DNA of 44,023 nucleotides from a virus. The notes under the pieces were generated by a model. The model saw only the letters and a list, made by a program, of their open reading frames with translations, was not told the DNA's origin and made no database searches. A program made the translations under genes and the position numbers. The stretch spans positions 1 through 44,023 of IMG/VR virus record IMGVR_UViG_3300034418_010563; one strand, written 5' to 3'. Below, in pieces: positions 1 through 23,781 of the stretch (the stretch's first letter is position 1; the number at the start of each line of letters is the position of its first letter).

Positions 1-712
1 TGGGCGGATAGGCCCGTCGCGCTTCGGGGTCGGAGTATCGCCACTGTTTGAGGTTCAGCGGCGCGTGCGTGTCGCGGACGCGGTTGTCATCGGCGGTCAA
101 ATACATCCAGCCGCCTTCGGCGAATGCCTCCGCGACCACCGGGTCGCTCTGCTGCGTCATGCGGCCCGCGTTGTACGAGGTCGCGTTCGTCGTGCGGAAG
201 GCCATCTCGAGGTATCGACGCACGCCGCCCGGGTAGCCCTCAGCGTCGACGCCCGACGAGAGCTGCTCGATGAAGTCGCTCATCTGCGACCCGTCGCCGG
301 CCATCGCTTTGCGGATACGCTCGGCCGCATCGCGCACCACCGTCTCGGAGATGCCGCGCGAGAGCGACCATGCGCGCACGCGCTCGTCGTCGAGCAGAGC
401 CCGGAATGCCTCGGGGCTCATCAGCTCGCGAGACTCGAAATAGTCGAGCGCTTCGGCGAAGCCGAGCTCGAGGAATGCTCGGTCGTAGATGTCCGGCGCG
501 AGCGCGACCTTTCGCGCCCCGAACTCGACGTCTCGCACGAAGAGCTGCCCGGCCATGTGGCTTTGCATGTCCGCGCGCCAGAGCGTCGAGACGAGCGCGT
601 GGTCGCCCTCGATGGCTTTGCTCGCCCAGTCTTTCAAAGACGCAATCGCTTCGCTCTCGTCGCGCGCGGTGCGCAGCGCAGCGGCGAGGTCGGGCAGACG
701 CCCTAGCACCAC
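1..712 (-). CDS. Mu gpF-like head morphogenesis protein (partial, 3' end off window)
   Basis: This leftward reading frame is open from a GTG at 712 to the window edge, about 237 residues. The start is chosen because AGGAGG lies 8 bases upstream of the GTG, inside the end of the portal gene. The last visible part contains TADDNRVRDTHAPLN, the D-x-RVR-x-x-H signature of the Mu gpF / SPP1 gp7 minor head protein family, which normally sits next to the portal and helps in capsid assembly or DNA ejection. It directly follows the DUF935 portal gene, as in Mu-like head operons. The C-terminus is missing, so any fused domain cannot be judged. Confidence 0.85.
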   Translation of the reverse strand, partial: MVLGRLPDLAAALRTARDESEAIASLKDWASKAIEGDHALVSTLWRADMQSHMAGQLFVRDVEFGARKVALAPDIYDRAFLELGFAEALDYFESRELMSPEAFRALLDDERVRAWSLSRGISETVVRDAAERIRKAMAGDGSQMSDFIEQLSSGVDAEGYPGGVRRYLEMAFRTTNATSYNAGRMTQQSDPVVAEAFAEGGWMYLTADDNRVRDTHAPLNLKQWRYSDPEARRAYPP

Positions 713-741
713 CGCTGACGCCTCCTGCGCGGCGCGTAGCG

Positions 742-2607
742 TCAGCGCTCGGGGTCGTCCGATGCGTCGAACCGCAGACCCTCGAGCTGTGTCGTCGAGG
801 GTGAGGACGTCGGCGAAGTCTGCCACGCCATCGTCAGTTGGTGCGGCCGACCCCTCTTCGGGGCCGGGGCTAAAGGGAGGCCGGCGTCGCCACCCTCCAC
901 GCGGCTCGTCTCGCGACGGTCGAGCCGCTCGACGATCGTCTCCGCCCAGCGCTTGCCCGCGTCGCCGCCCCAAAGCGCCCACGCGATGCGGCCGTTACTC
1001 GGGTAGCCCGGCTCGCCAGGCGAGAAGCCCTCGCCGCCTTTGCTCGTGCTCTCGTGCCGCGCGAAGAACGCCTTCATCCTGCGCATCGTGTCAGCGCTCA
1101 ATCGCGCACCACGCGCGATGTCGCGAGCGCGGGCGATGCCGACCTCGGTTCCGCCGCGACCGTACTCACGCCGCCAGTCGAGCCCGCGCTGGGCCTCCTC
1201 GCGCGCACCCTTCGGCGCGATGAAGCCATCCTCGTCGGCGAGCTCGACGCGCTCGTCGATGGTCGCGTCGTCGTCGGAGAAGAACGACGGCGCTTGCGTC
1301 TTCGCAAGCGGTTGCACGAAGCGCTCGCCCTCGGGGCCGTCGAGCGGGTCGAGCCCCGCCGAGAGCCGGAGCTCGTTCGCCCGCACCACGCCCGCGTCGA
1401 CGTGAAGCTGCGTGATGACGGGCGGCGTCTCGGTCGCGAGGACGAACTCGACGTGCGGCGTCGGCGGCACGCGACCGCCGAAAGATGCTGCATTGAATGC
1501 GAGCAGCGGCTGGAGCCACGTCGCACGAATCGCGGTCTCTGCGCTCGCGGCGATGGCGCGCAAGCGCGGGAGAATCGTCGTCTCGTTCTGTGACTCGCCG
1601 AGCGCGCGATTGCCGCCCGTGTCGCCCACCTCGACGTTCAGCGTCGAGCCGAGAATGGCCTTCGAGATTTCTGCGTTGAAGCGGTCGATCGCGTCGCCGT
1701 AAGTCTGACCGGGGTTGCTCGTGCTCTCGACGATGTTGATCGCTTGCTCCTGCTCGATCACCGCCGTGTGTGACGACGAGAGCGCCTGCAATCCCTCGAA
1801 GAACGCATCGCGCGCCGCGTCCGGCGCATTCGGCGAAAGCGTGCCGTAGATGAACGGCGTGCCGAATCGCTCCAACGCGTCCTGTTGAAACACCGTCGCC
1901 CAACGCTTCCAAAGCCACGGCCACGCGCACGACATGAGCAGCCCGGCGACGTTGCTCTGAAGCCCTGGCGCGGTGTGCACATGCACGAGCCATCGCGCGG
2001 GCTCGTCTTCAAGAGAGAGCCAGTCCCAGCCCTGCTGGAACCCGTCGACGCGCGGGTAGGTGCGCACGCGCGGGATCCACGAATCATCGACGCGAATGTC
2101 GCGCGTCAGCACCCAGTGCTGCGCGACCGAGTGCACCTCGCGCCCTTCGCGCTCCCACTGATGCTCGGCGATCGAAATCCCGACGAGCGCGGCGTAAAGC
2201 ACATTCGAGAGCGTGAGCTCGAGGCGCGACGAGTGATCATGGAGCGACCGCGCGCAGAAGTCCGCGCCGGCCTGCGCGAGCGCAGGGTCCGTCGCATTGT
2301 CCGGCGCCGTGAACCGAAGCTCCGAGCCGGCGATGGACCGCAGCAGCGTGTCGGTGACCGACCGGATGTGCGAGTCCTGCGTCAGCATCACCTCGACGAT
2401 ATCGGCCCATTGCTCGAGGTCGCCGAGACGCGCGCGGTCGAGCGCCGCCGAGAGCTGCTCCGGTGTCAGCCCCGCGACGCGCGTGCGCGTGCGATAGCGC
2501 GGCGCCGCCGAGAAGAGCTGCCGCCCCATCGGAGCTCGCGCCGCAAGAGGCACCACGGGCGCAAGCGCGCGGGTCGGCTCGGTCTTTCCGCGTCGCTTGG
2601 ATGCCAT
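742..2607 (-). CDS. Phage portal protein, DUF935 / Mu gp29 family, with extra C-terminal module
   Basis: 621 residues. The first about 460 residues look like DUF935 portals: the conserved GDTGGNRALGESQ stretch, the KRWATVFQQDALERFGTPF segment, and a repeated DxxIRSVTDTLLRSI helix near the N-terminus. The portal forms the dodecameric vertex ring through which DNA is packaged. Residues about 482-562 form an additional conserved-looking module (YGRGGTEVGIARARDI, FARHES, PGYPSNGRIAWALWGGDAGK) that is not part of the usual portal fold. I recall similar short modules attached to other phage head proteins but cannot name the family. The tail after 562 is low complexity. The gene lies 8 bases downstream of the terL stop and is followed by gpF. 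Confidence 0.9.
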   Translation of the reverse strand: MASKRRGKTEPTRALAPVVPLAARAPMGRQLFSAAPRYRTRTRVAGLTPEQLSAALDRARLGDLEQWADIVEVMLTQDSHIRSVTDTLLRSIAGSELRFTAPDNATDPALAQAGADFCARSLHDHSSRLELTLSNVLYAALVGISIAEHQWEREGREVHSVAQHWVLTRDIRVDDSWIPRVRTYPRVDGFQQGWDWLSLEDEPARWLVHVHTAPGLQSNVAGLLMSCAWPWLWKRWATVFQQDALERFGTPFIYGTLSPNAPDAARDAFFEGLQALSSSHTAVIEQEQAINIVESTSNPGQTYGDAIDRFNAEISKAILGSTLNVEVGDTGGNRALGESQNETTILPRLRAIAASAETAIRATWLQPLLAFNAASFGGRVPPTPHVEFVLATETPPVITQLHVDAGVVRANELRLSAGLDPLDGPEGERFVQPLAKTQAPSFFSDDDATIDERVELADEDGFIAPKGAREEAQRGLDWRREYGRGGTEVGIARARDIARGARLSADTMRRMKAFFARHESTSKGGEGFSPGEPGYPSNGRIAWALWGGDAGKRWAETIVERLDRRETSRVEGGDAGLPLAPAPKRGRPHQLTMAWQTSPTSSPSTTQLEGLRFDASDDPER

Positions 2608-2615
2608 CGTCGTCC

Positions 2616-3983
2616 TCAGTAGTACCGGCCCGCGCCGGCCATGGCGCGCCGTGCGCCGGTGTGGACCCGCTTCGGGTCATTCGTCCTGACCATCGGCCCG
2701 AGCGCCGCAAACGCGCCGCTGACCGCGTCCACGCCGTCATCGTGCGCGCCGTGCGGGAAGGCCATCGCTTCGTCGAGCCACCAGCGCAGCCACTCGCCGC
2801 GAATCAATCGCACGTTGCCGTTCTTGGCCGCGCTCGCGACCGGCGCCGCTCGCGTCGCCTTGTCGCCTGTCGAGCGCACGCCCTCGAAGGCATAGCCCGT
2901 CAGCACGCGCCGAGCGTAGGTGTCGATCACCGCCTTGCCCGAGCTGCCCGGCTCCTGCTCCATGTAGATGCGCGTCGAGCGCCCGTCTTCCTCGGCGGTG
3001 CGTCGCACGAAGTCCTCGACGTCAGCCGGCGCGAGACGAGCGCGCTGCACGTCGGCGACGTACCAGACGCCCTGATGCTGTCCGACGAGCGCGCCCGCAG
3101 TCCAGTCCGGGTCTTTGCCCGGCGCGGCCTCGGTCGCCGCCATGTCCCAGTAGCGCACCCACGTCATGCGCTCGGGCACGTCGTCCCAATCGACGAGCTT
3201 GCCGTCGAACCACGCGCGGTCGAAGAAGCCGCCGGAAGGCTGCGCGTCCCAATCGCCGTTCAGAAGCCGCGCCTGCTCGAGCGGGTGCAGGTTGCTCAGC
3301 GACCGGACGTATTCGTCGAAGTCAATCGACGGGTTGTCACGAAGCGACGCGGGAAAGAATCGCCTGTCCTCGGGCGCGTCGAGGTAGCGCGTGCGCACCC
3401 ATTCGTGACCGCGGCCGCCCGGGTTGGCCGTCGCTCGCACACGAAGCGGGATGCTCGCTTGCGACCCCGTCACCGCGCGTCGGCATCGCGAGTGCAAATA
3501 TCGGAAGTGCTCTTCGAGATGCTGCGTGAGCTCATCGAAGCCGACGAAGTGATACGCGGCGCCCTGATACCCGTCGAGCGCGCGCTCTTTGTCGAGGTAC
3601 GCGAACTGAATCGTCGAACCCCAGGGGAAGCGAAACGTCTTCTCCTGCACGCTGAACGTCGCGATTCCGCGAAGCCAATCCTTCGCGATGTCGCCGATGG
3701 CGCGCGGCGCGAAGAGGTCGCCGAAATTGCGGCGCACGATAAGCGCGGAATACCCCGGCAGATGCGCATATTTCAAAGCGCACGCGAGCATCGCGACCGA
3801 TTTGCCGCCGCCTGCCGCGCCGCCGTAAAGCGCCTCGTACCCGTCCCAGTCGAAGAACTCGCGCTGCTTCGGGTGCAGGTCAATCGGGATGAACCCGTCG
3901 CTCGTCGCCGGATGGTCGGGCTCGAATCCCGGCACATGCGACGCCCACGTTTGCGCGGCTCTTTTCCAACTCACTGCGGCCAA
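2616..3983 (-). CDS. terL: Terminase large subunit (packaging ATPase and nuclease)
   Basis: 455 residues. The N-terminal ATPase has Walker A GGAAGGGKS at 54-62 and Walker B FVGFDELT with D150-E151. The C-terminal RNase H-like nuclease shows WVRYWDMA (D280), EQEPGSSG (E344) and HDDGVDA (D415/D416/D419). It pumps DNA into the prohead and cuts concatemers. The start is a TTG preceded by GAGGGG, but both lie in or against an intrinsic-terminator hairpin (3981-4013). An in-frame GTG three codons later is possible but has no ribosome site. Portal follows directly. The small subunit is not adjacent: it lies about 4.5 kb upstream at 8458-8961, separated by a glycosyltransferase cassette. Confidence 0.95.
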   Translation of the reverse strand: MAAVSWKRAAQTWASHVPGFEPDHPATSDGFIPIDLHPKQREFFDWDGYEALYGGAAGGGKSVAMLACALKYAHLPGYSALIVRRNFGDLFAPRAIGDIAKDWLRGIATFSVQEKTFRFPWGSTIQFAYLDKERALDGYQGAAYHFVGFDELTQHLEEHFRYLHSRCRRAVTGSQASIPLRVRATANPGGRGHEWVRTRYLDAPEDRRFFPASLRDNPSIDFDEYVRSLSNLHPLEQARLLNGDWDAQPSGGFFDRAWFDGKLVDWDDVPERMTWVRYWDMAATEAAPGKDPDWTAGALVGQHQGVWYVADVQRARLAPADVEDFVRRTAEEDGRSTRIYMEQEPGSSGKAVIDTYARRVLTGYAFEGVRSTGDKATRAAPVASAAKNGNVRLIRGEWLRWWLDEAMAFPHGAHDDGVDAVSGAFAALGPMVRTNDPKRVHTGARRAMAGAGRYY

Positions 3984-4013
3984 AGCAAAAGCCCCTCGCT
4001 GACGCGAAGGGCT
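3981..4013 (-). terminator. Intrinsic terminator overlapping the terL start
   Basis: On the minus strand a 10-bp stem (arms 4013-4004 and 3999-3990, one G-T pair) closes a GTCA loop and is followed at once by TTTTGCTTTG. This is the form of a rho-independent terminator for leftward transcription. The TTG start of terL lies within the T-rich tail and its GAGGGG ribosome site lies in the 3' arm. The hairpin could therefore both stop transcripts coming from the glycan cassette and hide the ribosome site. The opposite strand has no T tract. Confidence 0.75.
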
Positions 4014-4067
4014 CTGCCCCGGAGGGGGTGATACCGGTGAGCCGGACAGCGCCAGCGTGCTCTAACG

Positions 4068-4646
4068 CTACGGACGCCGACCCCAGCCTGCAATGCTTGC
4101 GGGCACCGTATCTGCGATCAATGCGGCATTCGCGAGATTCTCACGTCGAAAGAAGAGCTGCGCGCCGCGCCCGACAGTCCAGCGGCACGCTTCGGCGTGC
4201 CCGGCCGGGGTCGAATCCATGAGCCCGCCGTAGTGGGTCGCACCCTCGCACGCCACCTCACGCCGTCCGGCAAGCACGTCGGAGGCGAGCTCGCGGACGT
4301 GCTCGAGCTGCTCCGCGTAACGCTGCCACGCACCGCCGAGATGCGGCGGCCACGACGGTGGCGGCGACGCGCTCACGCGCAGCTCACGCACCCAGCGCCG
4401 GTGTCGAGGCGGTCGGCGAATCGCGGCCGAGTAGCGTCGCGCCATGAGCGCGGCGCTCGTGCCGGTAAGCTGCGCGCGACGCAAGTGCACCTCGACGATC
4501 GCAGCGTAAGCGTCGTCTGGCGCGCGCCACCCGAGCTCGCCGACAGCAGCGCGGGCATTCCAGAGCGCAGCGTCGTGGCCGGTGCGCTGCGCGAAAGCAG
4601 CGGTGCTCGCGACGAGCGCGAGGAGGCAAAGGGCTATCAGTCGCAT
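4068..4646 (-). CDS. Exported protein with signal peptide, unknown function
   Basis: 192 residues. Residues 1-19 form a typical signal peptide (MRLIALCLLALVASTAAFA) with a probable cleavage before Gln20, so the product should reach the periplasm or envelope. The mature part has many Trp and Arg residues and ends with CEGATHYGGLMD and a Cys-Trp motif. GATHY resembles the end of SleB/CwlJ-type cell wall hydrolases, but the rest does not obviously match, so a peptidoglycan role is only a guess. It sits between the last glycosyltransferase (17-bp gap) and the terminator ahead of terL. AGGA lies before the ATG. Confidence 0.7.
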   Translation of the reverse strand: MRLIALCLLALVASTAAFAQRTGHDAALWNARAAVGELGWRAPDDAYAAIVEVHLRRAQLTGTSAALMARRYSAAIRRPPRHRRWVRELRVSASPPPSWPPHLGGAWQRYAEQLEHVRELASDVLAGRREVACEGATHYGGLMDSTPAGHAEACRWTVGRGAQLFFRRENLANAALIADTVPASIAGWGRRP

Positions 4647-4662
4647 CCGGGAGTCCTAGCCG

Positions 4663-5346
4663 CTATCCCAGCCCGCGCACGTCGGGCATGCCCACCAGCC
4701 GCCGCACCTCGTCCGCATCGGCCGGGCGGCTGTGCGCCGACCAGCGCGGCCACATGTTGACGTCGCCGGTCGTGAAGCACGCCGCGCCCGCGTCGGCCAT
4801 CCGCAGCCCACGCACGCGAGGTGCGCCGGCAGCCTCGAGGCGGTCGGCGAGGTCGGAGTCGAGGTGCCGGTCGCGCTCCGGCGTCCAGCCTCCGCACGCG
4901 CGCATCCAGCGCGCAGCGACCATGCGACCGGACCCGTAGACGCGCTCACTCGCGTCCGAGCGCGGGCCGACCTCGTGCGACGCGCGACCGGTGCGCCGGT
5001 CGAGACGATAGCCGTCGAGGAGCGCAGCGTGCTCGCACCCGGCGGCCGCGAGCTCGCGCAGAGTCGCGACGTAGCGCGCGGAGAGGTAGTCGTCCGAGCC
5101 GAGCACGACGACGTGCGAAGCGCCCGCGTCGAGCGCGCGCGTCAGCCCCGCGTTGTGCTTCGCCCCGAGCGGGTTGTTGGGCGCCTCGACGCGGAGCGCC
5201 GAGAGCTCGGGTCGCACGTCTACCGGGTCCGGGTCACTCGGCGAGACGACCACGACGAGCGCGTCGAAGAGCGGCGCGTGATGGTGCAACACGCTCGTCT
5301 CGAGCTCGCCGCGACCCCAGCACGTCACGACGGCGATGAGCTTCAC
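4663..5346 (-). CDS. Glycosyltransferase, GT-A fold (GT2-like), third of three
   Basis: 227 residues from GTG 5346, which overlaps the upstream stop as GTGA. The open frame runs further upstream, but only in the shadow of the preceding gene. The N-terminus KLIAVVTCWGR, then NPLGAKHNAGL and VVVLGSDDYLSARY (a DxD-like metal or nucleotide-sugar site), fit a GT-A type nucleotide-diphospho-sugar transferase. A later segment GGWTPERDRHLDSDL resembles the acceptor-side D/E region. It is translationally coupled to the second glycosyltransferase. The sugar donor and acceptor cannot be read from sequence. Last member of the four-gene glycan cassette. Confidence 0.75.
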   Translation of the reverse strand: MKLIAVVTCWGRGELETSVLHHHAPLFDALVVVVSPSDPDPVDVRPELSALRVEAPNNPLGAKHNAGLTRALDAGASHVVVLGSDDYLSARYVATLRELAAAGCEHAALLDGYRLDRRTGRASHEVGPRSDASERVYGSGRMVAARWMRACGGWTPERDRHLDSDLADRLEAAGAPRVRGLRMADAGAACFTTGDVNMWPRWSAHSRPADADEVRRLVGMPDVRGLG

Positions 5347-6080
5347 AGCGCGCCCCACGTCACGCCCTGCACCACGCGGTTTTCGTTTCGCGTCGCGCGG
5401 TCGGTCCAGATAGACGGCGCGCCGTCCGGTAGCAGATTGCCGAGCCATCCCTCGCGCGGCAGCGGCATGCAATAGCGCGGCACGCTCGCGCGCTCGCACC
5501 ACGCGGCCAGATGCAGGTCGCCGACGTTCGGCGGGTCGGCCACGTCGACGGCCTCGAAGCCGCGCACGTAGCGCGGGCGCGTGATGACGCTGGACGTGCC
5601 GAGAACGTGCGCGCGCGCCATCTCGTCGGGCCGCGTCTCGAAGCGGAGGCAGTGCTGCACATGCTGGCGCTGGTCGCGGTAGCGTTTGCATTGCTCCGGC
5701 AGTCGAAGCGCGTGCAGACCGACCACGCACGGGCCGTCGGCTTCGACGCGCTCGAGCGCGGCGAGCATCGTCTCGACGTAGTCTGTCGGGTATCTGAGGT
5801 CGTCGTCGCAGACGAGCCACACCGCGTCGTCTGGCAGCATGCCGAGCGCGGCGAACTTCCCGCCGTCGCCTCGGTCGCCGCGCGCGAAGCCGATGCGATG
5901 CCACGGGATGTCGAGGCTCGACGCGAGCTGGCAAAACTCGAACTCGGCGAGCTCGCCCTCGGCCACGCTGTGCTTGTCGAGCCAGAGATGCAACACGTCG
6001 ACCTGCGGTAGCAGCGACGCGACGGCGCGGAGCGCGATGTCTCGGCGACGCGGCAGCGTGGCCATGCTTGCGACGATCAT
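5343..6080 (-). CDS. Glycosyltransferase-like protein (GT-A fold), second of three
   Basis: 245 residues from ATG 6080, which overlaps the stop of the FkbM gene as ATGA. The protein begins MIVASMATLPRRRDIALRAV and has WLVCDDDLRYPTDY, a DxD-type motif in the expected place for a GT-A glycosyltransferase that binds a nucleotide sugar through a divalent metal. It is short and lacks a membrane anchor, so it should be cytoplasmic. It is coupled on both sides to other cassette genes. Its precise donor is unknown. It could in principle transfer to a virion protein, DNA base or lipid-linked sugar. Confidence 0.7.
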   Translation of the reverse strand: MIVASMATLPRRRDIALRAVASLLPQVDVLHLWLDKHSVAEGELAEFEFCQLASSLDIPWHRIGFARGDRGDGGKFAALGMLPDDAVWLVCDDDLRYPTDYVETMLAALERVEADGPCVVGLHALRLPEQCKRYRDQRQHVQHCLRFETRPDEMARAHVLGTSSVITRPRYVRGFEAVDVADPPNVGDLHLAAWCERASVPRYCMPLPREGWLGNLLPDGAPSIWTDRATRNENRVVQGVTWGAL

Positions 6081-6730
6081 GAGGTCACCCGATAGACGTG
6101 CGTCGGCGTCGCGCACCATGTCGAGTCCCATGCGTAGCCCAGCGCCTCGAGGAGCGCGTCGAGCATGTCGCGCGCGCCTTCGACCACGACCACCGGACGG
6201 CAGCGCCGCAGCGTCGCGAGCGCGCCGAGGATGACGTGTCGCTCGTGACCCTCGACGTCGATCTTGACCAGCCCCACGTCGAGCTCTCTCGCCATCTCGT
6301 CGACGCGCATCGTCACGACGCCATCCTCGGCGACGCGCACGCGAGCCATCCCGCTATTGCCCGGCGGCGGAGGCACGAACTCGACCACCTCGCCGTCGCC
6401 GACCGCGACGCGCATCGCATTCCAGCGCGACCCCAGCGGGTCGATCGACCGCAGCGCAGCGCACAGCGCGTGATATCGCTCAGTCGGCTCGCACGCGATG
6501 ACGCCGGCGACCTCGCCGGCCGCAAGCATCGCCGCCGCGTGGTTCCCGACGTGCGCGCCGATGTCGAGCATCCAGCGCCCGCGTATCTCGGGCAGCGTGC
6601 GCATGTGCTCAATGAGCGGCGCCTCGTAGAGTCGGCCGCGCGCGTGATGCAACGCGATGTGATCCTCGGCGCTCTCATGCTCGAATCCGAGCAGACGCCC
6701 GGCGTAAGACACGAGCGGTCGGAACGTCAC
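6077..6730 (-). CDS. FkbM-family SAM-dependent methyltransferase
   Basis: 217 residues from GTG 6730, which overlaps the upstream stop as GTGA. The SAM-binding motif I reads MLDIGAHVGNHAA and the FkbM signature VGLVKIDVEGHERHVI is clear. FkbM enzymes O-methylate small molecules and sugars, and are common in O-antigen, capsule and polyketide loci. Lying between two glycosyltransferases and coupled to both, it most likely caps or decorates the same glycan (inference). Family assignment is strong; substrate is unknown. Confidence 0.85.
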   Translation of the reverse strand: MTFRPLVSYAGRLLGFEHESAEDHIALHHARGRLYEAPLIEHMRTLPEIRGRWMLDIGAHVGNHAAAMLAAGEVAGVIACEPTERYHALCAALRSIDPLGSRWNAMRVAVGDGEVVEFVPPPPGNSGMARVRVAEDGVVTMRVDEMARELDVGLVKIDVEGHERHVILGALATLRRCRPVVVVEGARDMLDALLEALGYAWDSTWCATPTHVYRVTS

Positions 6731-7458
6731 GGCGTCACCGTGCAAACGCGGCGCCGCTTGCGCGCACCTTCGCTCGCCGTCGCCTGCGGATTCATCACGC
6801 TCGCGCCCTCGTCGTCGTGCCAGCACATCGTCTCGCGCGGCCTGTACCACCAGAGCCCCGCCGCGTGCGTGCGGTAGCTCGAGGAGCGCCACGCGCCCGA
6901 GCCGAGGTGCGGATAGCGCACCCAGTCGCGATTGACCTCCTCGGGTCGCAGTGACTCGAGCCAGCGCGCGCGCGTGACCCAAACGCCATCCTGCCAGGCC
7001 ATGTGCTCGCCCTGCCCGTCGACGTCATCGCCGCCAGGTAGCCCCCATTCGCGCGTCCTCCCGTCGCGATGCGCGTGCAGACCGATGCAGCCTGGGTATC
7101 GACTGACTCGCGTGGTCTCCTCGGCGGCGCGCTGACGCCAGCCGTCGGCGAGGCGCAGGTCGTCGGCGAGATACGCGACGAGCTCAGCGCCGGGTCGGCG
7201 AAGCTCGAAGGCCGCGTCGAGGAGCGCGCCGACGGTGCGCCAATAGCCGATGCGCCCGCGATTCTCGGGCGCACGCAGTAGCGTGCACTCGACGTGCTCT
7301 GTCAGCCCCGACGCGGCGAGCACGTCGCCCGCGTAAGCGTCCGGCGATGCATCGTCGAGGACGACGAGCGCATCGCGCGACGTGAGCTCGCGCCGCAAGT
7401 CGGCGCAGATGCGCGCGAAAAAGGCGGGGCGAGCGTAGGTGGGAAGGAGGACGATCAT
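6727..7458 (-). CDS. Glycosyltransferase family 2-like protein, first of three
   Basis: 243 residues from ATG 7458, which overlaps the upstream HTH gene as ATGA. It starts MIVLLPTYARPAFFARI, then ALVVLDDASPDAYAGD and ENRGRIGYWRT, and VAYLADDLRLADGW. This is the order expected of GT2 enzymes (nucleotide site D-D-x-S, then DxD). No membrane segment is seen. First enzyme of the glycan cassette and translationally coupled to the small HTH gene before it and the FkbM gene after it. Confidence 0.8.
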   Translation of the reverse strand: MIVLLPTYARPAFFARICADLRRELTSRDALVVLDDASPDAYAGDVLAASGLTEHVECTLLRAPENRGRIGYWRTVGALLDAAFELRRPGAELVAYLADDLRLADGWRQRAAEETTRVSRYPGCIGLHAHRDGRTREWGLPGGDDVDGQGEHMAWQDGVWVTRARWLESLRPEEVNRDWVRYPHLGSGAWRSSSYRTHAAGLWWYRPRETMCWHDDEGASVMNPQATASEGARKRRRVCTVTP

Positions 7459-7649
7459 CGCCGCGACCTCGCCGAGATAGCGTCGAGCCGCGTGCGAAGG
7501 TCGGCGACCGACACGCGCCACGACGCGCCGGGATATGGCTGGTGCGTGCGCGGCCAGAGCGTCGGGTAGCTGTCGATCCATCGCCGCAGCGCATCAGCGC
7601 TCATGCCGAGCTGCGCGGCCGCCTTCGGGACCGTCGTGTATTCGCTCAT
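7455..7649 (-). CDS. Small helix-turn-helix protein (excisionase/MerR-like)
   Basis: 64 residues. The N-terminus TTVPKAAAQLGMSADALRRWI is a helix-turn-helix of the MerR/excisionase type, followed by a short winged part ending SWRVSVADLRTRL. Such proteins bind DNA as regulators or recombination directionality factors. As there is no integrase in view and the gene is coupled by ATGA overlaps to a sigma-like gene upstream and a glycosyltransferase downstream, a regulatory role for the cassette or late genes is more likely than excision (inference). Confidence 0.7.
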   Translation of the reverse strand: MSEYTTVPKAAAQLGMSADALRRWIDSYPTLWPRTHQPYPGASWRVSVADLRTRLDAISARSRR

Positions 7650-8461
7650 CCTGCCCCCTTCGCCAGCGCGACCCGTCGCGCCTCAATCGCCGCGCATTCT
7701 GCCAGATATGCGGCAGACGCACCAGACGCGGGACGACGGCGCGGCTTCACGAGCTCGCGTGCGACCATCTCGACGCGCAGATAGCGCATCGCGCGGTCGG
7801 TCGTGCGTCGCACGACTCGCGCCGTCACGTCGGGCACCGCGAGCTGCTCGGCGATAGCCTCCGGCGTGAGCTGCACCGGCTCGCGCCTCACGTCGCGGCG
7901 CACGCGTACGTCGGCCCAATCGAAGGCAACCCACCGCGCCATCGTCGCCGCGAAAGCCTGGCGCGCGTCGAGGAGCCCTTCCCACGCGACACGCTCGAAG
8001 ACGTGCCGGAGGCACGCCTCGACGGCGGCGCAGTCCTCCGCTTGCCGCGTCGCCTGCGGGTCACCAGGCGCGCCCCCATCGACTCGCACGCCGTCGCGAC
8101 CGAGTGCCTCGGTGACGGCGTGCAGGCTTTTCGCGCCGTACCCATCGACGCGCACGCGCGCCCAGAGCTCGAGGGCCTCCGAGACGGTCGCCCACCGGTA
8201 GCGGTGCGCCACGCGTCCCGGCGTCGGCGCGGTCGCGATAGCTTCGAGCGACGCATCCCATCGCGTGCCTTGCCCGGCCTCCGGCACGACGCGCGGCACC
8301 TCGTCGGGCGCCACGCCGAGCGCGCCCAGGCGGTCGAGCTCGCGCCGGCAGAGCGCGCACGTCGGCTCGCCCTCGGTGCCGCGCACGCCGACCATCCCGC
8401 ACAGCGAGACCGACAGCACGCCATCGGTCTCGCGCAGGACGTGCGATTTCGTGCGGCTCAC
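7646..8461 (-). CDS. Unknown protein with sigma-region-4-like helix-turn-helix; candidate late regulator
   Basis: 271 residues from GTG 8461 (GTGA overlap with terS). The N-terminal third has a CxxC pair (PTCALCRREL). The C-terminal part has VQLTPEAIAEQLAVPDVTARVVRRTTDRAMRYLR split over two helices, which resembles sigma region 4 and RinA/ArpU-type phage late transcription regulators: a helix-turn-helix followed by a basic RA-x-x-x-LR helix. No clear family match comes to mind, so this is inference from pattern. A Q- or RinA-like activity would suit a gene in front of a terminator that guards terL. Confidence 0.5.
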   Translation of the reverse strand: MSRTKSHVLRETDGVLSVSLCGMVGVRGTEGEPTCALCRRELDRLGALGVAPDEVPRVVPEAGQGTRWDASLEAIATAPTPGRVAHRYRWATVSEALELWARVRVDGYGAKSLHAVTEALGRDGVRVDGGAPGDPQATRQAEDCAAVEACLRHVFERVAWEGLLDARQAFAATMARWVAFDWADVRVRRDVRREPVQLTPEAIAEQLAVPDVTARVVRRTTDRAMRYLRVEMVARELVKPRRRPASGASAAYLAECAAIEARRVALAKGAG

Positions 8462-8961
8462 TCGTCGACGTCCATGTCTTGAAGCGCCGCGAGCACCTCG
8501 GAGAAGGCGGCCGAGCTGATGCGCTCGCGCAGACCCTCGACGAGCTGCTCCGCGAGCTTTTGCCGCTCGGTGAGCTGGAGCGTGCGCTCGGCGTAGTCTC
8601 GCCCGGCGATGCGCGGCAAGATCCACTTCGCAGTGCCTAACGCGCGGTCCTCGTCGTCGGATTGCAGTGCCGAGACGACGACGCCCTCGGCGCGCGCCAC
8701 GACCTTCGCGCGCTCTTTCTCGACCTTGCGGGCGAGCTTGGCGAACTGCGAGTGCCGCTCCTTGTGGCCGCCGACCATGTGCTCTTTGCCGCGTGCGAGC
8801 CAGCGCGCGCCGCGCGAGCGCGGGATTTCGGCGAGCGCGATAGCGCGCTCGTAACCGACGCCTTTGCGCATTGCACCGAGGACGGCTTCGATTTCCTCGT
8901 CGGTCGGCTCGATGACATCGGAGCGCATCTTCGCGTGCGTTTCACTCTTTTGTTTCGCCAC
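8458..8961 (-). CDS. terS: Terminase small subunit (probable)
   Basis: 167 residues from GTG 8961, chosen because AGGAGG lies 7 bases upstream; the longer open frame upstream belongs to the zinc-ribbon gene in another frame. The N-terminal helix-turn-helix (EEIEAVLGAMRKGVGYERA, IPRSRGARWLARG) is followed by a long charged helix (FAKLARKVEKERAKVVARAE) and a segment ALGTAKWILPRIAGRDYAER. This matches the layout of phage TerS proteins, which recognise pac or cos and form a ring. It is separated from terL by six genes, which is unusual. Confidence 0.7.
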   Translation of the reverse strand: MAKQKSETHAKMRSDVIEPTDEEIEAVLGAMRKGVGYERAIALAEIPRSRGARWLARGKEHMVGGHKERHSQFAKLARKVEKERAKVVARAEGVVVSALQSDDEDRALGTAKWILPRIAGRDYAERTLQLTERQKLAEQLVEGLRERISSAAFSEVLAALQDMDVDE

Positions 8962-8962
8962 C

Positions 8963-9121
8963 TTAGCTCCTCCTCTTCCCCTTCTTCGCCTCACGCCCCG
9001 TGCACGTCGGGCATTCATGCCGCATGCAACCACGCTCCGCATCCCACGTCCGCGCCCACGCATGACGCTCCGGCAGGTGCGCCTCGAGCTCCGCGCCGCA
9101 GCGGTCGCAGCGGATGACCAT
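8963..9121 (-). CDS. Small zinc-ribbon protein
   Basis: 52 residues, too short for ordinary ORF cut-offs. The ATG at 9121 overlaps the stop of the methyltransferase (TGATG). It has MVIRCDRCGAEL and later HECPTCTGRE, two CxxC knuckles 29 residues apart, so a single zinc ribbon with a basic tail (KKGKRRS). Its end carries the AGGAGG ribosome site for terS. Function unknown; nucleic acid binding is likely. Confidence 0.75.
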   Translation of the reverse strand: MVIRCDRCGAELEAHLPERHAWARTWDAERGCMRHECPTCTGREAKKGKRRS

Positions 9122-9873
9122 CACAAAATTTCGTCCATCACTTGTTTGATTCCGCGTCCGATGTGGAAGGCGACATCAGGAACAACGGCATTGCCAGGCA
9201 ATCGAGCCAATCCAGCGGGAAGCCCATCAGCGCGAGCCACAGCCTCGGCACATGATGCCCTGGTACGCGACCCATCTCGTCCTGCAGCCTCGCGTACGCT
9301 GGCCATCGTCGCATGTACGGCGCGAAGTGGTTCGCCTTGGCCGTGGGCGTAGGCCACGACGAAGACGCGATCACGGTGGTGCGGGTATCCAAGCTCAGCG
9401 GGGGACAAAGCCAGTGGCACGCTGGAATATCCCGATCGACAAAGATCGCGCCGCACGACGGGCACCCATTCTCGCCAGCTTGATCCGACATTTTCCACCA
9501 CCACCCACGAAGGTCTGACGTATTCGATAGCGCCCAGATACGAGCGCCACAGCCCTGAGCGGGGGCCAGCAAGGCCGGTGCGACAAACGACGTTAGCGCT
9601 CGACAGGTCCTGACACGGGAAGCCACCGCACATTACGTCGACCGGCTCTATCGGATCTTCGCACTCGCAATCCCAGCCGCCACGACACCAATCGCCGTGA
9701 TACCGGTCGAGCTCTCGCACGTCTCGAAAGATCTGCACGCGATGCCAGTGCCACGAGAGCACGGCTCGCGCGTCAGCATCCGGCTCGCATTGCCACACAA
9801 CCGGACCAAGCCCGGCGCGCTCCAAGCCAAGCTCTAGCCCGCCAATGCCCGAAAACAGCGATCCAATGGTCAC
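9121..9873 (-). CDS. DNA C5-cytosine methyltransferase, copy B
   Basis: 250 residues from GTG 9873 (GTGA overlap with the upstream methyltransferase; GGGGAG ribosome site). It carries motif I LFSGIGGLELGLE, motif IV GGFPCQDLS with the catalytic Cys, motif VI VVVENV, motif VIII HRDRVFVVA and a final GNAVVP motif X. It methylates the C5 of cytosine in double-stranded DNA. It is short, so the target recognition domain is small. Residues 1-30 are identical to copy A and the first 90 bp differ at only 5 third-codon positions, while the rest is diverged. No restriction enzyme is nearby, so it is probably an orphan protective enzyme. Confidence 0.92.
   Translation of the reverse strand: MTIGSLFSGIGGLELGLERAGLGPVVWQCEPDADARAVLSWHWHRVQIFRDVRELDRYHGDWCRGGWDCECEDPIEPVDVMCGGFPCQDLSSANVVCRTGLAGPRSGLWRSYLGAIEYVRPSWVVVENVGSSWREWVPVVRRDLCRSGYSSVPLALSPAELGYPHHRDRVFVVAYAHGQGEPLRAVHATMASVREAAGRDGSRTRASCAEAVARADGLPAGLARLPGNAVVPDVAFHIGRGIKQVMDEIL
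9784..9873 (-). repeat. Direct repeat: 5' end of C5 methyltransferase copy B
   Basis: These 90 bases match 10578-10667 at 85 of 90 positions by eye; all five differences are silent third-codon changes. Homology drops abruptly after the codon for Glu30. This marks a recent duplication or gene conversion limited to the SAM-binding motif I region. Confidence 0.85.
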
Positions 9874-10667
9874 TTCTCCCCACCCGCGGCGGCCTCCTCG
9901 GCCGGTCGCGCGCTGCGCGCCGCCAAGATGAGGCGACCAATAATTTCTGCGCATTGCGGCACGACCGCGTTACCTAAAACTCGAAACCGGTCTGACCGGT
10001 ATTCGGCAGGGTCCAATCCTCTGGAAAGCCCATTGCCCACTCCGTCCAACGTGGGTCCAGCGGACCAGGCGGATGCATCGGAAGCGTGCCTTGCTTCGCC
10101 CTCGTCCACAGCGAAGGCTTCCCCTTCGTCGCATACGGCGTGACCCCGTCCCTCGTGCCATTGTTTGACGAGCTGTAGACACTCGCCGTCGGTGTCGGCA
10201 ACGACGAAGGTGCGACGACGCAGGTGCGGAGCGCCGACTCGTCCGGCAGGAAGCACGAGGGGACAGCAAACGTAACCAAGGTCTTCGAGCCCTTCGAGGA
10301 CATGCGGCAACCACCTTTTCTGCCCGCTCGTAACATTCTCGACGACGACCACGGCGGGCTGGTGAACGTCGACCACGCGCAAAAACTCATACCAGAGTCC
10401 AGACCGAGCCCCCGCAAGCCCAGCACCGCTTCCAGCCGCCGACACGTCCTGACAGGGGAATCCGCCGCAGATAAGCTCCGCGCGCTCCAGCGGCTCGGCC
10501 CAGACGTCGTGGACGTCCTCGACACACGGCACGTCCGGCCAGTGCTTGCGCAAAATGCTGCGCGCGAACGGGTCACGCTCGCATTGCCACACAACCGGCC
10601 CAAGCCCGGCGCGCTCCAAGCCAAGCTCCAGCCCGCCGATGCCCGAAAACAGCGACCCGATGGTCAC
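9870..10667 (-). CDS. DNA C5-cytosine methyltransferase, copy A
   Basis: 265 residues from GTG 10667 (GTGA overlap with the small AT-hook gene). Motif I is LFSGIGGLELGLERAG, motif IV GGFPCQDVSAAGSG (catalytic Cys), motif VI VVVVENVTSG, motif VIII LRRRTFVVA, and the C-terminal motif X is RVLGNAVVPQCAEIIGRL. Together with copy B it forms a tandem pair that shares its first 30 residues exactly but differs in the recognition region, so the two probably modify different cytosine sites. Protection of phage DNA from host restriction is the usual role of such phage orphans. Confidence 0.92.
   Translation of the reverse strand: MTIGSLFSGIGGLELGLERAGLGPVVWQCERDPFARSILRKHWPDVPCVEDVHDVWAEPLERAELICGGFPCQDVSAAGSGAGLAGARSGLWYEFLRVVDVHQPAVVVVENVTSGQKRWLPHVLEGLEDLGYVCCPLVLPAGRVGAPHLRRRTFVVADTDGECLQLVKQWHEGRGHAVCDEGEAFAVDEGEARHASDASAWSAGPTLDGVGNGLSRGLDPAEYRSDRFRVLGNAVVPQCAEIIGRLILAARSARPAEEAAAGGEK
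10578..10667 (-). repeat. Direct repeat: 5' end of C5 methyltransferase copy A
   Basis: Partner of the repeat at 9784-9873. The two copies lie in the same orientation 794 bp apart, so homologous recombination between them would delete most of one gene and create an in-frame hybrid. Confidence 0.85.
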
Positions 10668-10816
10668 TTCTTCTTGGCCTCGGCAAGCGCGAGCAGCGCC
10701 CGCACCGCTTCCGACGGCCCGGCCCCGAAGGTCAGGAGCCGATCGCGCTCCTCCGGCGTCAGCCGAGCCGTGACAGGGACGTGCCCGAGCCGGGGTCGAC
10801 CCGGTCCCCGCTTCAC
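10664..10816 (-). CDS. Small AT-hook / ribbon-helix-helix-like DNA-binding protein, paralog 1
   Basis: 50 residues from GTG 10816 (GTGA overlap; GAGG upstream). It begins VKRGPGRPRLG, an AT-hook-like GRP motif, followed by VTARLTPEERDRLLTFGAGPSEAVRALLALAEA, the strand-helix-helix layout of ribbon-helix-helix proteins, and a basic KKK end. A clear paralog lies at 25625-25804 on the other strand at the end of the early operon. Probably a small repressor or DNA-architecture protein (inference). Confidence 0.7.
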   Translation of the reverse strand: MKRGPGRPRLGHVPVTARLTPEERDRLLTFGAGPSEAVRALLALAEAKKK

Positions 10817-11019
10817 CGCTGCCTCGCCGCAAGTGCCGAGATGCCCGACTCGGTGAGCACCATCGCCGAGCGATCGGAGGTCAGCTCGACCAGACCAGCT
10901 TTCACGCACCGGCGCAGGTGCGGCAGCGTCACCGCGTCAAAGCGTGTGCTCGCAGGGAGCGACACCGCGTCGCCGAAAGCGCGACCAAGAGCGAAGAGAT
11001 TCGTGTCGGTGATCTTCAT
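10813..11019 (-). CDS. Small winged-helix-like protein, unknown
   Basis: 68 residues from ATG 11019, chosen because AGGG lies 8 bases upstream; the frame is open a little further. The pattern FDAVTLPHLRRCVKAGLVEL followed by RSAMVLTESGISALAARQR is like the recognition helix and wing of a winged-helix regulator, ending in an L-T-x-x-G-x-x-A-L helix. No family is recognised. First gene of a coupled run into the AT-hook gene and the methyltransferases. Confidence 0.6.
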   Translation of the reverse strand: MKITDTNLFALGRAFGDAVSLPASTRFDAVTLPHLRRCVKAGLVELTSDRSAMVLTESGISALAARQR

Positions 11020-11026
11020 GCTCACG

Positions 11027-11055
11027 ACCCTAACCACACCACGAATATCTGTCAA
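11027..11055 (-). promoter_or_regulatory. Possible leftward promoter ahead of the small regulator and methyltransferases
   Basis: On the minus strand TTGACA (11055-11050) is a perfect -35 box. Seventeen bases later TAGGGT matches only 3 of 6 of a -10 box, so the promoter is uncertain or needs an activator. The preceding bases give CGTTGAC, the same heptamer found in the inverted repeat at 11704-11723, in the same orientation. Confidence 0.35.
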
Positions 11056-11058
11056 CGA

Positions 11059-11460
11059 TTATTCTTCGCCCTCCCCACCCGGCTCCAACACCGCATCCAG
11101 CCACGCCCAGAGCCGACCCAGGTCCGCGAGTCGCACCGTCACGAGCCACTCGCCCCGGTCCTGCCGCGTCACCACCACCGGCAGCCGTGCCCCGCACGCC
11201 GCGACCGCCTGACGCATCGCCGCCGTGATCGTCGACCGCCCCCGCTTCACCTCGACCCACGGCGTCGAGCTCGCCCCGCCGACCGACCACCCGTCCGGCT
11301 CGACGTCCGGCGCGTCCGCCCCGCTCCGACTCTGCCCGACCGCCCGCCGCCACGGCCGCCCGAGCACGTCGCCGAGCGCCGCCGCAGCCTCGCGCTCGCC
11401 CCGACCGCCCTTCGCCCTCGACGCCCGCCCACGCTTCGATGCCGCCTTCGTCGCTGCCAC
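11059..11460 (-). CDS. PD-(D/E)XK-type nuclease (Holliday-junction-resolvase-like)
   Basis: 133 residues from GTG 11460 with GGGGAGG just upstream. The N-terminus is Lys/Arg rich, then KGGRGEREAAAAL (helix with Glu), DAPDVEPDGW (metal-binding Asp) and WVEVKRGRST (the E-x-K motif), followed by a helix with Q (AMRQAVAACG) and a VVVTRQ strand. This order fits small PD-(D/E)XK nucleases of the archaeal Hjc/VRR-like type used in phage recombination. It is the first gene after the AT-rich control region. Family-level assignment is good; exact substrate is inference. Confidence 0.7.
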   Translation of the reverse strand: MAATKAASKRGRASRAKGGRGEREAAAALGDVLGRPWRRAVGQSRSGADAPDVEPDGWSVGGASSTPWVEVKRGRSTITAAMRQAVAACGARLPVVVTRQDRGEWLVTVRLADLGRLWAWLDAVLEPGGEGEE

Positions 11461-11628
11461 AATGCCTCCCCGTCGCGTCAGGCGCCCGTCTAAGCGCCTT
11501 GAATGCCCTCGCCTATGCCTACCCAGCCCCGAGCCGTCCGAGCGCCTCAGACGGGCGCGTGGTGGGTTTTCAGAGACGTTGCCCGCTCGCTCACGGCCAG
11601 GCTGCTCCGATGTTCAGCGGGGTCTATT

Positions 11629-11665
11629 ACTTGTCATAACTAGTAAGCATAGGATGATGACAAGT
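11629..11665. repeat. Inverted repeat ACTTGTCAT / ATGACAAGT
   Basis: Perfect 9-bp arms at 11629-11637 and 11657-11665 with a 19-bp AT-rich spacer. The complementarity continues imperfectly outward into TATTA-type sequence. The TGACA core recurs in the two other pairs of this region. Confidence 0.8.
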
Positions 11666-11703
11666 TATTATAGATAATACCTAGTGATATCATATACATA
11701 TAG

Positions 11704-11799
11704 AAACCCGTCAACGTGTCAGCACGCAATAGCGCTTCCATCCTCTCGTGTGTAAGGTCTGGAACTTTGCGCGGGACACGCTGACATGTTGACGGGTTT
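11704..11799. repeat. Long inverted repeat, 20-bp arms, 19/20 match
   Basis: Arms at 11704-11723 and 11780-11799 are reverse complements except for one base. The spacer is 56 bp. Each arm contains GTCAACRTGTCAGC or its complement. Centre-to-centre distance is 76 bp, about seven helical turns, suitable for two protein-bound sites on the same face of DNA. Confidence 0.85.
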
Positions 11800-11832
11800 T
11801 GCAAGTGCCTGTTTCCATTCGGGATTCGACGA

Positions 11833-11875
11833 AAAACCTGTCATTTTTCAAAAAACTCGCCATCTGACAAGTTTT
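11833..11875 (-). terminator. Inverted repeat spanning the PrimPol stop; possible terminator
   Basis: Arms at 11833-11843 and 11865-11875 pair at 10 of 11 positions. On the minus strand the hairpin has AAAACTTGTCA first and TGACAGGTTTTTC last, so it ends in a run of T as an intrinsic terminator would. The loop is long (21 bases) and AT-rich, and the arms share the TGACA core of the other repeats, so a binding-site role is also possible. Confidence 0.5.
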
Positions 11876-14178
11876 GGAGCGGGGCCGCGCGAGCCGCGAG
11901 CCTTCGATTCTAGCACTTCGACCCGCCCAGCGTCGACTAAATCGGCCACCAGCTCGTCCCGAAGCCGTCTATCGAGGCGCCCGAAGCGCCGGGTGAGCTC
12001 GCGGGCCGTGACCTGGCCGCGCTCGCGGACGAACCGCGCGACGTCTTTGAGCCAGCGCTCCCGCTCGGTGCGGCCGCTGCGCTCCTCGAGCTGCGCGGCG
12101 AAGCGGGCGAGCAGATACTCGACGAGCTGGCAGGACCACGCCGCGATGGGCTCGGTGATGACGGGCTCACTGCGGACGCCGCAAGCGGCTATCAGGGCGA
12201 CCTTTTGAGCCTGCACGGTCGCCCGCGAGAAAAGCGCGCTCGTCGCCGATCGGGCGTGCATGCGCACGGCGCAGTCCCTCAGCACCTCTTTCGCCGCGTC
12301 GTCGGCAGGCACGACGATGGGATTCGGTGTGGCAAAGAGGGTCTGCTCGGACGGCGGGTCGAAAGATTCCCACGCCCGCCAGCATGCGACCACCGACTCA
12401 GGGAGCGGCGTGGGGTCGACGTCTCGGGGGATGGGGCGCTCGACGGATCCGAAGACGAGGAAGCGCGCCAAGAAGCCGTCCTCGACGTGCGCCCCGCTCA
12501 TAGCTTCGAAGAGCGGCTCCGGCGTCGTGGTCAGATAGAGCGACAGGCAAGGCTGCACAATCTCGGTGCGCTTGCTGAGGTCGGCATACGTCTTCGAAAC
12601 CGCTATTTGATCCGCTTGCGAATAGAGCGACAGATACGCATCGACCTGGGCTTCGATGTGCGCCGGTGCATTCTTGGCGTTGAGACGCGCGAGCAGCCGC
12701 GATGCCTCGTCGATCATGAAAAGCGACGATTCGCAATCGGCGACCGCAGACCAGATGGCCGCGTCCGATGCGAGCTTGTCGTTCGCGACGCGCTTGAATG
12801 CGCCGATTTCAAAAAACAGGTCTTTGACGGTTTTGCGCGCGTGCTCCTTCCCGGCCCCAGTCGGCGCATGCGCGAGCACGTAAAGATTGCTGCGCAGCCC
12901 CGATTGCGTCCGCACCTTGCGTCCGACGACGGTGCCGAGCGCGACGAGGGCCGCGCCGAGAGCCAGCTCGGGCTGCGGGCTCGGGGCAGTCTCGACGAGG
13001 TGCCGCCAGAGCACGCCGAGCTGCCCGCCGATCGTATCGTAGAGCTCGGCCGGGAAGTCCCCAACGTCGCTCTCGGTCTCGGCCTCGGGCTCCTCGACGG
13101 TCTCGACGTGCTCCGGCTCGAGCTCTGCCTCGTCGCGCTTCTCAGCCGCCGCCCGTAAAAGCCCCTGCGCAATCTCGCGCCCGTCCATCCCGAGCACGGT
13201 CGCCATGCCGTATCCGCGCGCTCTGAGCGCCTCGGCGGCCAGCGTGAAATCCCCGTTATGCTCGAGCAGCGCGTATGCGCTGAACTTGTTATACCCGCGC
13301 ACCTCAAAGATCGTGCTCGTTGTGTGGACGTAGAGATAGTCGCCGCCTCTGGCGTTCGTCGTCGCCGAGACCCCGAGCCGCTTCCCCGGCCGTCTCCAAT
13401 GCGTGACACCGGCCGCGTTCGTCCGCAGCCGAGTCCACCCATGAGGCTCCAAAATCTCATCCCACGCCGCGCGCGCCACGAAGTCCTCGCCCGGTTTCAG
13501 CGAGTCGTATAGCGCACCCGACGATTGCCGCGACGGCGGCTCGTCTTTGACCGGCGACTCGTCAAGCGACCGAAAGACCGCGAGCAGCGCTTCGCGCTCG
13601 TCGACGGTCAGCGACACGATCGAGGCGAAGCCGCCTTCGACGAACTCATACGGAACGCCGCTCTCATGCACGCATGCTGGCGAGCCCGGTGCGACCGCAT
13701 AGCTGCCCTCGCCGCGTGTCTCGACAAGGAGATTCTTGGCGCCCTCGTGACGCGGCTCATGCTGACATCGTGTGACGTCGCAATGCGCGAGCTTGCGCGC
13801 CGGCTCCGATGAATCGGAACGGAACGCGACGTGCCATCCGCGCGTCGTCCGCACTGTGTATCCCGCGACAACGCGGTCGAAGATGTTGCCGACGCCCATC
13901 TCCTCGGCAGCACGCCGCCCTTTGTCGAGGCCGTCGCGCGTCTCGATGTCGATGATCTCGAGCCCGCCCGAAACGCGGCCGCCGATGATGCCAATCGCAC
14001 GACCCGCAAAGCGGTGCCGCGCTTCATCCTCGCCCATCGGCTTCTGCTGCCAGTGCCCCCATTTCACAACCGCTGGGCTTTTCGTCCCGTCGAGCACAAT
14101 CGGCAGCACGCTGATGCCCGCCGCGAGCGCTTCTAGCGCCGCCTGGACGGCAGGGTCCACACTCTCAGCCGCGCTCAT
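11848..14178 (-). CDS. Primase-polymerase fused to DUF3987-type helicase
   Basis: 776 residues. The N-terminal archaeo-eukaryotic PrimPol domain (about 1-190) has LEIIDIET (D77, E79), RGWHVAFR (H116) and ETRGEGSYAVAP (about 153-164), matching motifs I-III of bifunctional DNA primase/polymerases. A linker rich in Glu (340-372) leads to a RecA-like helicase domain with Walker A HAPTGAGKE (K444) and Walker B LFMIDEAS (D490-E491). The residue after the Walker lysine is Glu instead of Ser/Thr. The C-terminus (about 710-776) looks like a winged helix. It primes and unwinds phage DNA, and may synthesise it too, as no other DNA polymerase is visible. Start ATG overlaps the previous stop (ATGA). Confidence 0.9.
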   Translation of the reverse strand: MSAAESVDPAVQAALEALAAGISVLPIVLDGTKSPAVVKWGHWQQKPMGEDEARHRFAGRAIGIIGGRVSGGLEIIDIETRDGLDKGRRAAEEMGVGNIFDRVVAGYTVRTTRGWHVAFRSDSSEPARKLAHCDVTRCQHEPRHEGAKNLLVETRGEGSYAVAPGSPACVHESGVPYEFVEGGFASIVSLTVDEREALLAVFRSLDESPVKDEPPSRQSSGALYDSLKPGEDFVARAAWDEILEPHGWTRLRTNAAGVTHWRRPGKRLGVSATTNARGGDYLYVHTTSTIFEVRGYNKFSAYALLEHNGDFTLAAEALRARGYGMATVLGMDGREIAQGLLRAAAEKRDEAELEPEHVETVEEPEAETESDVGDFPAELYDTIGGQLGVLWRHLVETAPSPQPELALGAALVALGTVVGRKVRTQSGLRSNLYVLAHAPTGAGKEHARKTVKDLFFEIGAFKRVANDKLASDAAIWSAVADCESSLFMIDEASRLLARLNAKNAPAHIEAQVDAYLSLYSQADQIAVSKTYADLSKRTEIVQPCLSLYLTTTPEPLFEAMSGAHVEDGFLARFLVFGSVERPIPRDVDPTPLPESVVACWRAWESFDPPSEQTLFATPNPIVVPADDAAKEVLRDCAVRMHARSATSALFSRATVQAQKVALIAACGVRSEPVITEPIAAWSCQLVEYLLARFAAQLEERSGRTERERWLKDVARFVRERGQVTARELTRRFGRLDRRLRDELVADLVDAGRVEVLESKARGSRGPAPKLVRWRVF

Positions 14179-23480: not shown

Positions 23481-23781
23481 GCAGGTCGGGCGCGATGGTG
23501 CGGAGGCGGAGAGCTGGCGGCTGGCGGCCCTTGCGGCGCGCGAGGAATACTCGGAGATCTCCGACGCGCTGCGCCAAGAGACGAGGCTCTCACTCGCACT
23601 GACCGAGCAGCGCGACGCTGCTATTGCCGAGCGCGACGCCCTGCGCGCCCGCTTCGAGGCGCTGCGTCCAGACCCTTCGATGCTGGCCCGCTCAGCGGTG
23701 GTCGCGGACTCACGCGACACGTCGTGCGCGCCGAATAGCTGCATCGATGTCATTCGGGAGGAGCCGACCGATGCCGATTGA
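23440..23781 (+). CDS. Coiled-coil protein, unknown
   Basis: 113 residues. GAGGAGG lies 6 bases before the ATG, which is 41 bp inside the previous gene. Residues 20-80 are a long helical, coiled-coil-like stretch (LALTEQRDAAIAERDALRARF). The end contains two Cys residues (SCAPNSC). No function can be assigned. Its composition resembles the preceding coiled-coil protein. Confidence 0.6.
   Translation: MSSISRLIAAIVREQVGRDGAEAESWRLAALAAREEYSEISDALRQETRLSLALTEQRDAAIAERDALRARFEALRPDPSMLARSAVVADSRDTSCAPNSCIDVIREEPTDAD

Follow-up and report, generated by a model that had tools for sequence, protein, structure and literature searches.

We identified, in the genome of an uncultured phage represented by a single virus record of 44,023 nucleotides (the whole stretch, hereafter the window), four genes that we read as a late-expressed cassette for building a glycan, most likely on a virion protein. 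This reading as a whole is given a probability of about 0.6; that the genes form a glycan cassette is very likely, and the virion is its probable target by analogy with the systems compared below. The cassette was confirmed at positions 4663 to 7458 of the minus strand, between terS and terL, and its predicted products are three GT-A glycosyltransferases (GTs), here designated gtA, gtB and gtC, and an FkbM-family methyltransferase. Judging from sequence comparison, a recurrent FkbM-containing cassette that is non-orthologous to the mycobacteriophage examples and extends beyond them is apparently undescribed, and nothing on point was found in the literature on FkbM with viral auxiliary genes or on terminase-adjacent GTs.

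Organization of the Cassette

The coordinates, the back-to-back order and the 4-bp overlaps of the four genes proposed in an initial annotation proved to be exact on re-reading (Table 1). Every neighbouring pair from gtA to gtC shares a 4-bp stop/start overlap (GTGA or ATGA), and the chain extends back from gtA through a gene for a small HTH protein and a gene of 271 codons to terS. The chain with terS therefore stands, whereas the label "sigma-like" given to the product of the 271-codon gene does not, since a Pfam search returned no match and PHROGs gave only the score listed in Table 1. Overlaps of 4 bp are frequent genome-wide (31787/31790, 34495/34498, 36524/36527, 41022/41025 and 26796/26799); because they are ordinary for this phage, they point to co-expression and to no special link, and we ruled out tight overlaps as proof of a functional coupling within the cassette. 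The small protein encoded after gtC has its hydropathy maximum (2.09) at residue 1, and its top PHROG match covers the signal segment only.

Table 1. Positions in the window and predicted products of the cassette genes and their neighbours.
Predicted product	Position	Strand	Remarks
Mu-type portal protein	742–2607	−	PF06074 2.6e-51
terL, terminase large subunit	2616–~3983	−	phrog_979 2.5e-103, PF17289, PF03237; start codon uncertain
Small protein, signal-peptide-like N-terminus	4068–4646	−	MRLIALCLLALVASTAAFAQ; 16-bp gap after gtC
gtC, GT-A glycosyltransferase	4663–5346	−	GTG start, 227 aa; GSDD motif
gtB, KfiA/heparosan-synthase-type GT-A, GlcNAc-transferase-like	5343–6080	−	245 aa
FkbM-family SAM-dependent O-methyltransferase	6077–6730	−	GTG start, 217 aa
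gtA, GT-A glycosyltransferase, GT2-like	6727–7458	−	243 aa; TYAR, DDAS and LADDL motifs
Small HTH protein	7455–7649	−	HTH_17 0.0018, below cut-off
Protein with no family match	7646–8461	−	271 aa; PHROG 0.17 only
terS, terminase small subunit	8458–8961	−	phrog_4102 2.5e-8

The four genes can be regarded as real, because their GC content by codon position is of the coding type and because a second record (L084) is identical over window positions 1 to 11225 except for 8 mismatches in 11,225 bp. This twin record also bridges both window ends with 1,679 bp (L084 positions 11226 to 12904), from which a circularly permuted genome of about 45.7 kb is deduced; positions 1 and 44023 of the window correspond to the assembly break. 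The missing 1,679 bp contain one long ORF, probably a Mu-like head protease/scaffold gene by position and appearance.

Identification of the Cassette Enzymes

Searches with single sequences identified only the FkbM protein (in Pfam) and gtB (in the PDB), and profiles together with structure prediction were needed for gtA and gtC. The FkbM protein matched PF05050 (6.5e-14; 52.9 bits against a cut-off of 22.7), and its SAM-binding motifs LDIGAHVGNH (DIGAxxGN), CEP and KIDVEGHE are intact. gtB had no Pfam match above the cut-off; compared with the PDB by phmmer, it matched heparosan synthase B (1.3e-12) and KfiA (1.7e-6), with CDDDLRYPTDYVETM aligned with CDDDIIYPSDYINTM. Residues D92-D93-D94 of gtB were invariant in 20 aligned sequences, and both the sequence homology and the DDD motif of a KfiA-type GlcNAc transferase are thus present in this protein.

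For gtA, the Pfam GT2 match was below the cut-off (0.014), and PF00535 was matched by 6 of 11 members of its family. gtC alone gave no Pfam match, and its profile matched a GT in the PDB (3bcv, 2.4e-5). Alignments assembled from homologues encoded near gtB relatives (A2 for gtA, with 11 rows, and A3 for gtC, with 18 rows) were used as input to AlphaFold; in both of them the acidic motifs were invariant across the phage homologues, including D100 of gtA and D85 of gtC. The AF2 models reached a pLDDT of 82.9 and a pTM of 0.84 for gtA, and of 89.1 and 0.88 for gtC. When these models were compared by Foldseek, that of gtA matched GnT-I (1.2e-8), POMGNT1, SpsA and KfiA, and that of gtC matched the Leptospira GT 6p61 (1.6e-10), WrtF, AvpGT and chondroitin polymerase, so that both predicted structures show a GT-A fold with a DxD-type motif. 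Since the gtA and gtC models group with solved GT-A enzymes, family search and structure prediction placed no cassette protein outside the glycosyltransferases and FkbM. The enzyme classes proposed initially, three GT-A enzymes and an FkbM methyltransferase, are therefore established at the level of homology (gtB), predicted fold (gtA and gtC) and Pfam family (FkbM).

Insertion Between terS and terL

Through terL, 79 loci were found, those with upstream sequence were mapped, and ten close terL relatives were examined. In 7 of these 10, a PHROG-recognised terS lies directly against terL (weakly recognised in L020). Two relatives, L005 and L007, encode the terS family of the window (7e-36 and 3e-35), and their terS overlaps terL, whereas terS and terL are 4.4 kb apart in the window. 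As terS adjoins terL in relatives, the cassette is an insertion, in agreement with the initial annotation. No relatives of the four cassette families were found at the control terL loci, except in the twin record and for one gtA-like match (L070). The best terL matches (42–46%) were to methanobacterial and Gordonia phages, which was uninformative about the host, and no GT is annotated in the vicinity of terL in the Gordonia phage Hanem.

Recurrence of the Cassette Families in Phages and Bacteria

When segments of gtB, KfiA and heparosan synthase were used as queries, KfiA-like GTs were found in 63 further viral contigs, among which gtA-like and gtC-like ORFs were frequent. FkbM scored over the cut-off in 11 of 49 non-redundant gtB-bearing viral records, compared with none of 50 terL-relative control records of similar total length (p = 2e-4). 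The order gtA-FkbM-gtB is repeated in L138, L146 and, immediately following terL, in L123, and gtA is fused to gtB in L104, L095, L115 and L163, with the order terL, FkbM and gtA+gtB fusion in L115. Fusions of FkbM with gtB occur in L105 and in Rhizobium and Polyangiaceae chromosomes. All four cassette families are present in L164, a contig binned as Bdellovibrionales that also encodes a homing endonuclease, where FkbM, gtA and gtB are followed by two other methyltransferases and gtC. In the comparison with one FkbM-GT fusion protein of Polyangiaceae, the window FkbM protein showed 37% identity to its FkbM half (202 aa) and gtB showed 34% identity to its GT half (215 aa), with the halves in matching order; this match of both enzymes to a single bacterial fusion protein links FkbM and gtB to one pathway.

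Relatives of gtB were located 2.7 kb or less from terL in 11 of the 16 records in which both were found. Compared with random placement the combined p was only 0.04, marginally beyond chance, and hence the packaging-gene neighbourhood of gtB relatives is suggestive but unproven, and a strong statistical gtB-terL link was not retained. The initial annotation had also described the position between terS and terL as odd. It appears less so now, since several other phages have related GT cassettes near packaging or portal genes and the head operon of Firecracker contains an analogous cassette (see below).

In the gtB tree, the main phage clade was well supported (96/93), and the window gtB was placed outside it on a long branch, its exact place being unsure. 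A separate acquisition of the window gtB is therefore likely, although not settled. By tblastn, gtA, gtB and gtC, together with the gtB of L131 and the gtA of L123, had no match in 50,697 isolate phage records.

Other arrangements were observed in the recovered records. L105, a 51-kb virus record, encodes its FkbM+gtB fusion at 4804–7722 as a protein of 972 aa. L163, a low-GC contig from an Actinomycetota bin, carries at 953–11928 a large sugar-gene cluster, in which the gtA+gtB fusion and FkbM are accompanied by other GT-like and sugar-nucleotide-type genes, and which by eye adjoins a phage-helicase-like gene; the contig may belong to a large phage that encodes a sugar pathway itself. L162, from the chromosome of a Gemmatimonadota MAG, has a tandem pair of KfiA-like GT genes at 7237–8777, in a region that looks like phage DNA. 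In L101, L106, L113, L130 and L131, terL is closely followed by a gene that by eye is GT2-like (MKTLGVSMIVKNESE... or a similar sequence), additional to the gtB located upstream of the terminase genes.

Comparison With Known Glycosylation Systems

The best-documented phage virion glycosylation that we found rests on a few mycobacteriophages. Cluster O phages encode an O-methyltransferase and three GTs between portal and protease; these enzymes were detected in infected cells, they were not counted as virion proteins, and a modification of the capsid was proposed (PMC4351075). Virion proteins of Corndog, Che8 and Myrna are reported as glycosylated, and Corndog gp38 and Che8 gp110 are described as essential for capsid glycosylation, in the account of PMC12363180, citing Freeman 2023.

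Like the window, cluster O phages (Corndog gp35-38, Firecracker gp33-36) combine an O-methyltransferase with three small GTs, encoded with short overlaps in a head/packaging operon; in the Firecracker map the overlaps are mostly of 4 bp. The enzyme families are different, since the O-methyltransferase of cluster O is TylF (PF05711) instead of FkbM, and its GTs are GT25-like and Glyco_tranf_2_2-like, whereas those of the window belong to other families. The location also differs, between portal and protease in cluster O, as seen in the Firecracker map, and between terS and terL in the window. When the window enzymes were compared with those of Firecracker and Che8, no significant match was obtained except for a weak profile match of gtA to Firecracker gp36, and orthology was consequently unsupported by sequence comparison. 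In summary, the window shares with the mycobacteriophage systems the grouping of an O-methyltransferase with several GTs as an operon among the virion genes, and lacks the TylF O-methyltransferase and the GT25-type GT (Corndog gp38/Che8 gp110) of those phages. Given the same make-up and the different enzyme families, we read the cassette as working like those systems without being orthologous to them. The record KF279412 corresponds to Bane1, which is unrelated.

Che8 gp108-110 (cluster F1) also resemble the cassette, as three overlapping genes, one of them a GT2-TylF fusion, of a phage whose virion is reported to carry glycosylated proteins; they are located at the far right genome end, and their GT and O-methyltransferase families differ from those of the window. 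Chlorovirus PBCV-1 A064R joins a GT, a second GT and a sugar O-methyltransferase, all virus-encoded, which work on the glycan of the major capsid protein (PMC7019647); as a single three-domain protein of a eukaryotic virus, it is comparable with the separate phage genes by make-up only. KfiA of E. coli K5 and heparosan synthase B are homologous to gtB over its length and have the DDD motif in common with it; they build capsule, and gtB, at about 30% identity, would be a GT of related activity. The FkbM-GT fusions of Rhizobium and Polyangiaceae have halves that are the best or near-best relatives of the two window enzymes, FkbM preceding gtB in both cases, but they are chromosomal, fused and uncharacterised, and their neighbours look like ordinary chromosomal genes.

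On a tentative view, to which we give somewhat less than even odds, the KfiA-like GT, FkbM and two further GT-A families would form a mobile module present in many unrelated uncultured phages, often beside packaging genes, and giving them a methylated glycan coat; virion glycosylation would then be general and built repeatedly from different enzymes, not a mycobacteriophage peculiarity. A second, non-orthologous enzyme set of the same make-up in an unrelated Mu-headed phage, with counterparts in dozens of phage contigs from the environment, would point to convergent virion glycosylation, for the testing of which the cassette offers defined enzymes.

Proposed Function and Alternative Explanations

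In the mechanism that we propose, three cytoplasmic GT-A enzymes would transfer sugars in succession from host nucleotide-sugar pools. The sugar added by gtB would probably be of the HexNAc type, as for the related KfiA, and FkbM would O-methylate one of the sugars, perhaps as a cap. The acceptor would most likely be a capsid or tail-tube protein, as in the Corndog and Che8 mycobacteriophages; the window encodes a major capsid protein at 42681–43625 and a putative tail-tube protein at 39238–40473. The activities, the sugars, their order of addition, the late timing and the acceptor are all inferred. No membrane segment was detected in the four cassette proteins (maximum 19-residue hydropathy of 1.26), and the GTs should thus act in the cytoplasm, the site of head and tail assembly; as the leftward gene chain continues with the genes for portal, head and tail, the cassette should be made late. 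With both virion assembly and the GTs expected in the cytoplasm, the proposal that the exported protein encoded at 4068–4646 might be the glycan target is left unsupported.

The initial annotation had named three possible targets, a virion protein, a host surface molecule and DNA bases, among which the virion protein is the best supported, by analogy. Modification of a host envelope glycan, such as an LPS or capsule repeat, which would block superinfection or the re-adsorption of progeny to debris, is the main rival, although unlikely in our judgement. It can be envisaged because KfiA acts, and the bacterial FkbM-gtB fusions may act, on envelope polysaccharide: the solved homologue KfiA builds capsule, the closest gtB and FkbM relatives include chromosomal FkbM-GT fusions adjoining a GT2, and a signal-peptide-like protein comes after the cassette. 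However, the four proteins include no membrane-spanning GT like those of phage serotype-conversion operons, so that the Gtr-like combination of a membrane GT and a flippase was not found, and the linkage to packaging and head genes in one chain points to expression late in infection, when there is less benefit in excluding superinfection. Glycosylation of phage DNA bases, as a hypermodification against restriction, is very improbable. TET-phage systems pair C5-cytosine methyltransferases with GTs, and two such methyltransferases are encoded just upstream of the cassette (PF00145, 3.7e-26 and 6.3e-38); nevertheless, neither a TET/JBP oxygenase (PF12851) nor a thymidylate-synthase-type hydroxymethylase (PF00303) was found in the window, for which reason DNA was rejected as the leading target. 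Moreover, the family of gtB is one of polysaccharide GTs, and the one main ORF in the 1.68 kb missing from the window is, by eye, neither a GT nor an oxygenase.

A passenger (moron-like) insert of little importance to the phage, placed at a permissive site by terL, is likewise a doubtful explanation. GT cassettes of different phages sit ahead of terS, between the two terminase genes, or behind terL or the portal gene, the statistic for terL proximity is weak, and relatives of the same terL group have no cassette, all of which would fit a passenger. Against this, none of the four genes is disrupted, their active-site motifs are conserved and their overlaps tight, and the partner families are met again with their order unchanged or as fusions, which drift alone would not keep. 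A methylated glycan on the virion is the explanation that we prefer.

Additional Features of the Genome

The two C5-cytosine DNA methyltransferase genes lie in tandem at 9121–9954 and 9870–10832 and contain a 95-bp near-identical repeat (9783–9877 and 10577–10671, 94.7%), so that the pair looks like a gene duplication. An N6/N4-type DNA methyltransferase (PF01555, 6e-20) is encoded at 19107–19973, in the opposite strand block, and together with the C5-cytosine enzymes it brings the DNA methyltransferases of this phage to at least three. At 23771–24223, a protein of 150 aa without a Pfam match resembles, by eye, a nucleoside deoxyribosyltransferase (YLSAPSAEIERAREVRE...). In the tail region, the neighbouring genes at 28163–28858 and 28855–29802, whose products belong to no Pfam family, look like diverged tandem copies and, by eye, have ASCI.AG...NFVSGDY.RKTGL stretches in common.
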